Part shown: positions 42,881 to 44,621 of the stretch, piece after piece
Layout of the letters: each line of letters begins with the position of its first letter
Numbering within the stretch: position 1 is the stretch's first letter
Source of the DNA: Cohnella sp.
GTDB lineage: Bacteria > Bacillota > Bacilli > Paenibacillales > Paenibacillaceae
DNA length: 49,183 nucleotides
Assembly: GCA_028287445.1 (NCBI GenBank)
Contig: JAQBPQ010000097.1
Coordinates: 1-49,183, forward strand
Reading direction: 5' to 3'
Translations under genes and position numbers: made by a program
Notes under the pieces: model-generated
The model's input: only the letters and a program-made list of their open reading frames with translations
The model's database searches: none
Told to the model about the DNA's origin: nothing

Positions 42881-42898
42881 CAGGAGGTTATGCCGCTT

Positions 42899-43621
42899 AT
42901 GTACGTGAAATGGAAGCTGATCACCCAACTATCGATCTATCGCCTGCTGTTCAGGTTCGGCTGGAAGAGCGAAGAAGTGTATTACATCGGAGGAAGCGAA
43001 GCGCTTCCGCCTCCGCTATCTCGAGAGGAAGAAGAATATTTGCTGGAGCGTCTCCCCTCGGGAGATGCCGCCATCCGTGCGATGTTGATCGAACGAAATT
43101 TGCGTCTGGTCGTCTACATCGCGCGGAAGTTTGAAAATACCGGCATTCATATCGAAGATTTGGTTTCGATCGGGGCTATCGGATTGATCAAAGCGGTTAA
43201 TACTTTCGATCCCGAGAAAAAAATCAAACTCGCCACCTATGCCTCACGCTGCATAGAGAACGAAATTCTCATGTATTTGCGTCGAAACAGTAAGACGAGG
43301 ACGGAAGTCTCATTCGACGAACCGCTGAACATCGACTGGGATGGCAACGAATTATTGCTGTCGGACGTGCTGGGAACCGAAAACGATACGATCTACCGCA
43401 ACATCGAAGAACAGGTCGACCGCAAATTATTGCACAAAGCGCTCGACAAGCTAAGCGAGCGGGAACGAACGATTATGGAGCTGCGTTTCGGCCTGGCGGA
43501 CGGGGAAGAGAAAACGCAAAAAGACGTGGCGGATTTGCTCGGTATCTCCCAATCGTACATTTCCAGGTTGGAAAAACGCATTATTAAAAGACTTCGTAAG
43601 GAGTTCAACAAAATGGTTTGA
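42899..43621 (+). CDS. sigE: RNA polymerase sporulation sigma factor sigma-E (pro-form)
   Basis: 240 residues. The first ~27 residues ([20 protein letters not shown]) are the amphipathic, membrane-binding pro-sequence removed by SpoIIGA; the conserved [18 protein letters not shown] follows. Region 2 reads [19 protein letters not shown] ... [20 protein letters not shown], and region 4 the helix-turn-helix [20 protein letters not shown]. It directs early mother-cell transcription. Two ATGs are possible: 42899 matches the B. subtilis pro-sequence length, and AGGAGG lies 11 nt before it; 42890 is only 2 nt from that site. Confidence 0.96.
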
Positions 43622-43628
43622 GCAAGTG

Positions 43629-43764
43629 CGAGCGAAGCTCGCACGCCCGTTACACCGAAAAAGCGACGCCTGCGTTCGCGGTTCGGTTGTAACGCATTTG
43701 ATAACGAGCGAAGCTCGCACGCCCGTTACACCGAAAAAGCGACGCCTGCGTTCGCGGTTCGGTT
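43629..43764. repeat. 60-bp direct repeat, two copies, between sigE and sigG
   Basis: Bases 43629-43688 and 43705-43764 are identical over 60 bp, separated by 16 bp. Each copy carries the hairpin GCGAGC-GAA-GCTCGC style (CGAGC GAA GCTCG) and a second larger inverted repeat ACACCGAA ... TTCGGT; in copy 1 this stem extends to CGTTACA/TGTAACG. No T-run follows. Confidence 0.9.
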
Positions 43765-43777
43765 CTGACGAATTCTG

Positions 43778-43806
43778 GAATAAAAACCCCCTCCCCGGAG
43801 ATACTT
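43778..43806 (+). promoter_or_regulatory. Sigma-F-type promoter of sigG
   Basis: GAATA (43778-43782), 14 bp, then GGAGATACTT (43797-43806). The latter fits every position of the sigma-F -10 consensus as I know it (GGnRAnAMTW) and the former 4 of 5 of the -35 (GYWTA). Forespore sigma-F transcribes sigG in B. subtilis. Confidence 0.7.
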
Positions 43807-43831
43807 GACTATATCGTTGCACCCCGGGAGG
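43790..43831 (+). promoter_or_regulatory. Potential stem hiding the sigG ribosome binding site in read-through RNA
   Basis: CCTCCC (43790-43795) is complementary to the sigG Shine-Dalgarno GGGAGG (43826-43831); two further G-C pairs follow after one mismatch. The left arm lies upstream of the start point expected for the sigma-F promoter (near 43813), so only RNA reading in from sigE would fold this way. Confidence 0.6.
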
Positions 43832-43838
43832 AATTGCC

Positions 43839-44621
43839 TTGACCCGCAACAAAGTGGAGATTTGTGGAGTAGATACCTCGAAGCTGCCTGTTCTGAACAA
43901 CACCGAAATGAGGGAATTGTTTCTCGCTCTGCAAACCCGTGGTGAATGGGATGCCCGGGAAAAGCTCGTCAACGGGAATTTACGGCTTGTCCTGAGCGTC
44001 ATCCAGCGGTTTAACAACCGGGGCGAGTATGTCGATGACTTGTTCCAGGTCGGCTGCATCGGGCTGATGAAGGCGATCGACAACTTCGACTTGGGCCAAA
44101 ATGTCCGGTTTTCGACGTATGCGGTGCCTATGATTATTGGGGAAATACGACGGTATTTGCGTGACAACAACCCGATCCGGGTTTCCCGCAGCTTGCGCGA
44201 CATCGCCTACAAGGCGCTGCAGGTCAGGGACCAGCTGACGATCCTGCACTCGCGGGAACCGACGATCATGGAAATTTCCCAAGTGTTGAATGTTCCCAAA
44301 GAAGACATCGTATTTGCACTCGATGCGATCCAGGACCCGGTATCACTGTTCGAACCGATTTACCACGACGGCGGCGATCCGATTTATGTAATGGACCAGA
44401 TCAGCGACGAACGCAACAAAGACGCCCAATGGATTGAAGAGATTGCGCTTCGCGAGGCGATGCGCAAACTGAACAACCGGGAGAAAATGATCCTGTCGAT
44501 GCGATTCTTCGAAGGCAAGACGCAAATGGAAGTGGCCGATGAAATCGGCATCTCGCAAGCACAGGTATCCCGGCTCGAAAAGTCGGCGATCCAGCAAATG
44601 CAGAAACATGTGAAGACGTAA
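43839..44621 (+). CDS. sigG: RNA polymerase sporulation sigma factor sigma-G
   Basis: 260 residues, the usual length. N-terminus MTRNKVEICGVDTSKLPVL is highly conserved; region 2 DDLFQVGCIGLMKAIDNFD and VRFSTYAVPMIIGEIRRYLR; region 3; region 4 helix-turn-helix TQMEVADEIGISQAQVSRLE. It drives late forespore genes, including spore protective proteins and germination receptors. The start is TTG 43839, 7 nt after GGGAGG, itself a weak-start arrangement. The 217-bp gap after sigE holds a duplicated hairpin repeat, a sigma-F-type promoter and a sequence able to mask the ribosome binding site. A strong terminator follows. Confidence 0.97.
   Translation: MTRNKVEICGVDTSKLPVLNNTEMRELFLALQTRGEWDAREKLVNGNLRLVLSVIQRFNNRGEYVDDLFQVGCIGLMKAIDNFDLGQNVRFSTYAVPMIIGEIRRYLRDNNPIRVSRSLRDIAYKALQVRDQLTILHSREPTIMEISQVLNVPKEDIVFALDAIQDPVSLFEPIYHDGGDPIYVMDQISDERNKDAQWIEEIALREAMRKLNNREKMILSMRFFEGKTQMEVADEIGISQAQVSRLEKSAIQQMQKHVKT

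Follow-up and report, generated by a model that had tools for sequence, protein, structure and literature searches.

Protection of sigG against transcription entering from upstream has been considered previously. A large hairpin in B. subtilis sigG (spoIIIG) RNA, attributed by Mearls et al. (2018; PMC5942855) to a proposal of Masuda et al. (1988), would block translation of read-through transcripts and is unable to form in RNA initiated at PsigG. In the 2018 paper, a separate hairpin at the ribosome binding site (RBS) inside the sigG leader is described; it is inhibitory, lowers translation 2–4-fold in B. subtilis, and is reported for all 15 Bacilli surveyed. A promoter spacing of 14 nt is given there for 14 of 15 Bacilli. 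As for phages, a review (PMC3014915) lists the T4 genes e, soc, 49, and I-TevI as having a ribosome site hidden by a helix; for gene e, late promoters located just upstream give RNA from which the 5' side of the helix is missing, and the longer early RNA is silenced. The idea of a read-through lock is itself already known, as a proposal for B. subtilis sigG and in a similar form in T4 gene e. In a limited search of the open-licence literature, none of the papers listed dealt with covarying read-through arms at sigG or with locks at the spoIIR or fin genes, and a paper on Rho (PMC9931155) does not mention spoIIR, sigG, or spoIIIG.

The sigG promoter and the sigE–sigG interval in Cohnella

The window, i.e., the whole stretch of DNA analyzed (49,183 nt), belongs to a Cohnella genome assembly (G000; 3.3 Mb, 278 contigs, completeness 78%). 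According to the NCBIfam models, all above cut-off, its genes include spoIIGA, sigE, and sigG. The sigE gene (42890–43621, + strand; NF006158) is the upstream gene and a putative source of read-through into sigG (43839–44621, + strand; TIGR02850), which lies immediately 3' of it in the same direction and begins with a TTG codon at 43839; TTG is the sigG start in 31 of 32 unique Cohnella sites. The sigG promoter, also on the + strand, consists of the -35 element GAATA (43778–43782), retained in most Cohnella, and the conserved -10 element GGAGATACTT (43797–43806), separated by a 14-nt spacer (43783–43796). Sequence inspection and a duplex scan placed the left (anti-Shine-Dalgarno) arm, CCTCCC (43790–43795), inside this spacer; judging by pairing probabilities and a duplex energy of −14.9 kcal/mol, the arm reaches 43798 via one bulged C, with the GG of the -10 element pairing too. 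The right arm is the Shine-Dalgarno sequence GGGAGG itself (43826–43831), as indicated by sequence and fold. Transcription is expected to start at 43813, a position derived from the B. subtilis offset from the -10 element using the 30-nt leader given in PMC5942855 and locus L113.

The coordinates of GAATA, the 14-nt spacer, the -10 element, CCTCCC, GGGAGG, and the TTG start in the preliminary description were confirmed to the base and, with the start placed at 43813, its statement that the promoter sits between the two arms holds by position. The promoter pattern, with no more than one mismatch allowed, occurs once in the 49,183 bases of both strands, namely at the sigG site with 0 mismatches (0.13 occurrences expected from shuffles), and the set of elements from the -35 through the start codon is present in 36 of 37 Cohnella genomes. 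A spacer length of 14 nt was found in 176 of 190 unique sites, a count biased upward by a search that tried 14 first. The sequence CCTCCC is unremarkable as a 6-mer (28 copies in the window vs. 29 expected), so the arm is meaningful through its position alone.

Taken together, the sigG gene probably has a sigma-F-type promoter and a lock that prevents translation of read-through transcripts. RNA entering from spoIIGA–sigE, which presumably arises in the Cohnella host, would include the promoter spacer as RNA, and its CCUCCC arm would pair with GGGAGG and cover the ribosome site. RNA initiated by sigma-F (or sigma-G) near 43813 would lack this arm and would be translated, being damped by weaker local structure. 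Production of SigG would then be largely confined to the compartment in which the sigG promoter is active, namely the forespore.

The distance from the sigE stop codon to the -10 element is 175 nt in the window vs. 17–89 nt in 35 other Cohnella loci, the latter range leaving little space for a terminator. The longer distance in the window is due to a tandem repeat with a unit of 70 nt and a spacing of 76 nt. Both copies of this repeat (43629–43698 and 43705–43774, 96% identical) form strong hairpins and together fill the sigE–sigG gap. No further copies were detected in the genome assembly searched, and the 59 relatives yielded a single diverged copy, located in a different intergenic region (80% over 65 nt, in G008). 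The repeat was considered as a sigE–sigG terminator and rejected, as its strong hairpins lack a T-run and the terminator scan found no + strand terminator-like sites at 43500–44000. An Rfam search at 43400–44100 gave nothing meaningful (best score 15.2 bits vs. a gathering score of 37).

The scan did report a terminator-like site on the minus strand (43802–43786), in keeping with an alternative in which an antisense RNA is terminated by a CTCC/GGGGAG hairpin and the T-run behind it. This explanation appears very improbable, as one such site was found vs. 1.0 expected in shuffles, and at Bacillus-type sites the arm is followed on the minus strand by an A-run, not a T-run.

Predicted folding of read-through and promoter-started RNA

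Folding was predicted, without ribosomes and without folding during transcription, for 16 read-through RNAs (four 5' ends combined with four 3' ends) and for 12 promoter-started RNAs beginning at 43811, 43813, or 43815. In the read-through RNAs, the six arm pairs formed with probabilities of 0.36–1.0, the probability of an unpaired ribosome site was 0.00–0.03, and the predicted cost of opening the site was 6.8–12.1 kcal/mol. The corresponding values for the ribosome site in the promoter-started RNAs were 0.13–0.54 and 3.3–6.2 kcal/mol. The prediction thus agrees with the earlier claim that read-through RNA folds shut, while the claim that the ribosome site is free in the gene's own transcript was overstated. 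By sequence and predicted fold, the site contains a promoter whose RNA misses the 5' strand of an RBS-hiding helix, and in the cell this helix would reduce translation.

Shuffling of the window spacer gave 9 of 200 sequences as good as the real one; the predicted opening cost was 7.3 kcal/mol with the real spacer, 6.3 kcal/mol on average with shuffled spacers, and 5.4 kcal/mol with an all-A spacer. Since shuffled spacers are nearly as good, composition and context supply much of the closure in the window. Mean predicted opening costs for read-through RNA, own RNA, and RNA with a shuffled spacer were 7.7, 4.2, and 5.7 kcal/mol, respectively, in 32 Cohnella sites; 6.6, 4.0, and 3.9 kcal/mol in 42 Paenibacillus-type sites; and 10.1, 3.5, and 5.7 kcal/mol in 42 others.

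The weaker structure within the leader deserves separate consideration. The window has CACC (43820–43823, + strand) where the known RBS hairpin, which acts in own-promoter RNA, has its left arm; this variant is shared among the unique Cohnella sites with G030 only. The sequence CTCC is found at this position in 30 of 32 unique Cohnella leaders and in 45 of 46 Paenibacillus-type sites. This conservation, along with the reduction of sigG translation by the leader hairpin in B. subtilis stated in PMC5942855, suits an explanation in which the RBS hairpin inside the own leader, as tested in B. subtilis, is the main control and the upstream arm is minor in Cohnella. Such a division of roles is rather improbable. 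Leader-only folds of the window and G030 (−3.0 and −2.5 kcal/mol) are the two weakest of 32, and CACC is predicted to weaken the known RBS hairpin in the window. In addition, two of the five core bases are paired in the window leader vs. four in 22 of 32 leaders, although this is a weak point, since five sites that keep CTCC also have two of five paired. Moreover, the leader hairpin and the upstream-arm hairpin are compatible and not exclusive, and the read-through lock remains the preferred reading.

Pairing of promoter spacers with Shine-Dalgarno sequences among relatives

Upstream regions of sigG were collected from 269 loci. With 11 loci having no recognized start and 30 having no promoter and Shine-Dalgarno sequence within 110 nt, 228 regions were kept, 190 of them unique; the groups (Cohnella, Paenibacillus-type, and other) were assigned by locus number, not by a tree, and the last of them includes a few Clostridia.

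Outside Cohnella and Paenibacillus, the spacers are typically T/C-rich and match the flank of their own Shine-Dalgarno sequence. An unbroken helix of at least five pairs between the spacer and the Shine-Dalgarno core was found in 104 of 112 unique sites; therefore, the arrangement is not special to the locus from which it was originally described. For 108 unique arm pairs of this group, the mean duplex energy was −15.5 kcal/mol for cognate arms, −13.4 kcal/mol for permuted arms (the cognate value was reached in 0 of 10,000 permutations), and −9.5 kcal/mol for shuffled spacers; windows tested elsewhere upstream gave only −3.8 to −6.1 kcal/mol. Disjoint contrasts between nearest relatives (n = 54) were better for the cognate arms in 31 cases, worse in 15, and tied in 8 (Wilcoxon p 0.0006, sign test p 0.026).

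A fixed-register test was performed with 57 sequences thinned from the 74 of the non-Cohnella alignment. In this register, 76.9% of cells were paired and the covariation score was 0.243, each value being reached in 0 of 500 shuffles; changes on both sides were seen in 38 cells vs. 24.0 in shuffles. Three of the five measures beat all 500 shuffles, and the other two were matched in 50 and 130 of 500. When the partner was slid by 1–3 columns, four measures became worse and one was tied.

As for Cohnella, the right arm hardly varies, and no covariation was detected within the genus: the cognate and permuted means were −13.99 and −13.90 kcal/mol, with 1911 of 10,000 permutations reaching the cognate value, and the contrasts were 5 better, 5 worse, and 4 tied. 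Covariation in the Paenibacillus group was not significant (866 of 10,000; contrasts 7 to 5 with 10 tied), and the fixed-register count gave no signal within either group. The covariation across relatives that the preliminary description proposed as a check is thus significant only outside Cohnella and Paenibacillus. Position-specific complementarity was nevertheless found in both groups. Among the 16-nt windows tested upstream of 30 unique Cohnella sites, only the spacer pairs strongly (−14.0 kcal/mol vs. −4.0 to −7.4 kcal/mol), and cognate spacer pairing beats its own shuffles in 30 of 30 Cohnella and 42 of 45 Paenibacillus-group sites. This total pairing persists even though, with the promoter kept, an unbroken helix over four of the five core bases is absent in 12 of 32 Cohnella and 30 of 46 Paenibacillus-type sites, so that loss of the arms beside a retained promoter, which had been named as evidence against the lock, was observed in part.

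The register shared by the non-Cohnella alignment is not the one in which the window arms pair. A covariance model scored the window site at 18.4 bits and a sequence-only model at 17.9 bits, with 5 of 13 pairs non-standard; the model was rejected as a membership test, the match being carried by sequence and not by pairs. A second match to the model in the genome (15 bits, E 1.3) was taken as chance. The Cohnella pairing is a form of the lock that is shifted in register, weaker, and less dependent on base order, and the interpretation of the window site as a compartment lock is partly supported.

The absence of covariation in Cohnella, the 9 window shuffles equal to the real spacer, and the fact that the spacer belongs to the promoter would fit a different explanation, according to which the C-rich spacer acts as promoter DNA, through geometry or contacts with sigma-F/sigma-G, and its match to the Shine-Dalgarno sequence reflects base composition. 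We consider this unlikely. Outside Cohnella and Paenibacillus the spacer tracks the flank of its own Shine-Dalgarno sequence, as seen from the permutations above, and further arguments come from the gpr and spoIIR spacers (see below).

Additional support for the read-through lock was provided by loci with displaced promoters. Of the 30 loci without a promoter near sigG, 7 were unusable; in the 23 examined further, a promoter of the same type is located 104–232 nt upstream of the sigG start codon. Nineteen of these loci carry the family label f31, two are named Brevibacillus (L092, L093), and one Alicyclobacillus; the set contains repeats (17 distinct arm pairs), and L207 and L093 may be one genome. 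Pairing of the displaced promoter's spacer with the Shine-Dalgarno region is stronger than the average for shuffled versions of that spacer in 23 of 23 loci, and by at least 2 kcal/mol in 19 of 23 (15 of 17 distinct); the four loci below this value include L093 (B. laterosporus) and two loci that carry the arms of L093. An arm that moves with its promoter is what a read-through lock requires.

Other forespore genes and comparison with known systems

The genes gpr, spoIIR, and fin are also sigma-F-dependent. As controls, 30 loci each of gpr and spoIIR were taken from the family to which G219 belongs (40 genomes). The promoter rules for both genes were revised after inspection of the upstream sequences, the first rules having missed most sites, and 13 of the 30 gpr loci were still unusable. 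Pairing between the spacer and the Shine-Dalgarno sequence was absent at gpr, with 5 of 14 unique sites beating shuffles, which is a point against the promoter-DNA explanation of the sigG spacer.

At 22 unique spoIIR sites, the cognate arms had a mean duplex energy of −12.0 kcal/mol. Permuting the arms gave −9.7 kcal/mol (0 of 10,000 reached the cognate value) and shuffling the spacers −8.9 kcal/mol, and pairing peaked at the spacer. A similar result was obtained for 20 non-Cohnella spoIIR loci of the window's order (−11.1 vs. −8.7 kcal/mol, 0 of 10,000), and disjoint contrasts among 42 non-Cohnella sites were 16 better, 1 worse, and 4 tied. In four genomes with one genus label (g137; L300, L302, L303, and L310), the spoIIR spacers differ from one another, and each of them is the complement of the ribosome region at the same locus. 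Inspection of the spoIIR upstream regions L288–L317 and L348–L366 likewise showed spacers complementary to their own Shine-Dalgarno-to-start-codon region, with compensatory changes both between and within genera.

In the ten Cohnella spoIIR loci, spacer pairing was absent (−6.6 vs. −6.6 kcal/mol). Their spacers are not C-rich (C fraction 0.26, n = 10, vs. 0.51 for sigG), which is a further point against the promoter-DNA explanation of the sigG spacer. These loci (L367–L375 and L377, L375 being that of the window genome) have no spacer arm and possess a long conserved leader with GTTCCGGAACGCAT in 10 of 10; a helix in this leader, CGCATCG/CGATGCG or CGCATAG/CTATGCG, covers the ATG and covaries. 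An Rfam search with four spoIIR loci, including the Cohnella loci L375 and L368, gave no match at the gathering score.

At fin, 14 unique sites (from L384–L403) showed strong pairing (−16.7 kcal/mol vs. −7.2 kcal/mol for shuffled spacers), which just beats the permuted mean of −15.3 kcal/mol (43 of 10,000); the contrasts among these sites gave no clear sign of covariation (3 better, 4 worse). In a further 14 of 30 fin loci, which the initial promoter rule had not picked up, the spacer is 15 nt long, and the 9 unique, subtilis-like sites among them show no lock as a group (−4.7 vs. −4.2 kcal/mol for shuffled spacers).

The strand of the upstream gene was assessed with a crude test based on the longest open frame. 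By this test, the frame upstream of fin runs in the direction of the gene in 30 of 30 loci, and the frame upstream of spoIIR does so in 21 of 30 (8 opposite, 1 none). For gpr, the upstream frame runs in the opposite direction in 26 of 30 loci. The four genes suggest that the arms appear where read-through threatens, although a strict rule is disfavored by the fin sites without arms, where the upstream frame is co-directional as well. On balance, the data lean toward a wider statement: at forespore genes located close behind a co-directional gene, the sigma-F promoter spacer would serve as an anti-Shine-Dalgarno sequence for its own gene, so that only promoter-started RNA would be translatable; this would apply to sigG, to spoIIR, and in some lineages to fin, but not to gpr, for which read-through is unlikely because the gene mostly follows a divergent one.

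If true, this would explain how genes that have to stay silent outside the forespore can be immediate downstream neighbors of transcribed genes, and why a C/T-rich spacer of 14 nt has been maintained in the sigG promoter. SpoIIR is the signal that activates sigma-E, and SpoIIR leaking beyond the forespore could switch on sigma-E where it should not be active. The arrangement also suggests a compact part that could shield genes from transcription arriving from upstream.

With respect to the described systems, the window site does belong to a known and wider kind, of which it is a weak representative from Cohnella, and the value of the analysis is evidence that this kind is widespread, covarying, and common to other forespore genes. 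The read-through proposal of 1988 would thereby gain evolutionary support, with spoIIR added to it. The B. subtilis sigG read-through hairpin is the closest system: it shares with the window the gene and gene order, an RBS-covering hairpin barred from PsigG RNA, the 14-nt spacer, and a non-ATG start. It differs in size, having 20 or more pairs, whereas the window helix has approximately 8 pairs and one bulge, lies off the common register, and is accompanied by a leader without the CTCC arm. The leader RBS hairpin of Mearls et al. (2018; PMC5942855) would cover the same ribosome site as the lock in the window but acts on own-promoter RNA. Finally, T4 gene e, as described in the review, has the same logic of a promoter placed between two arms; there it serves phage timing, in contrast to cell type in the window, and no homology between the two is claimed.
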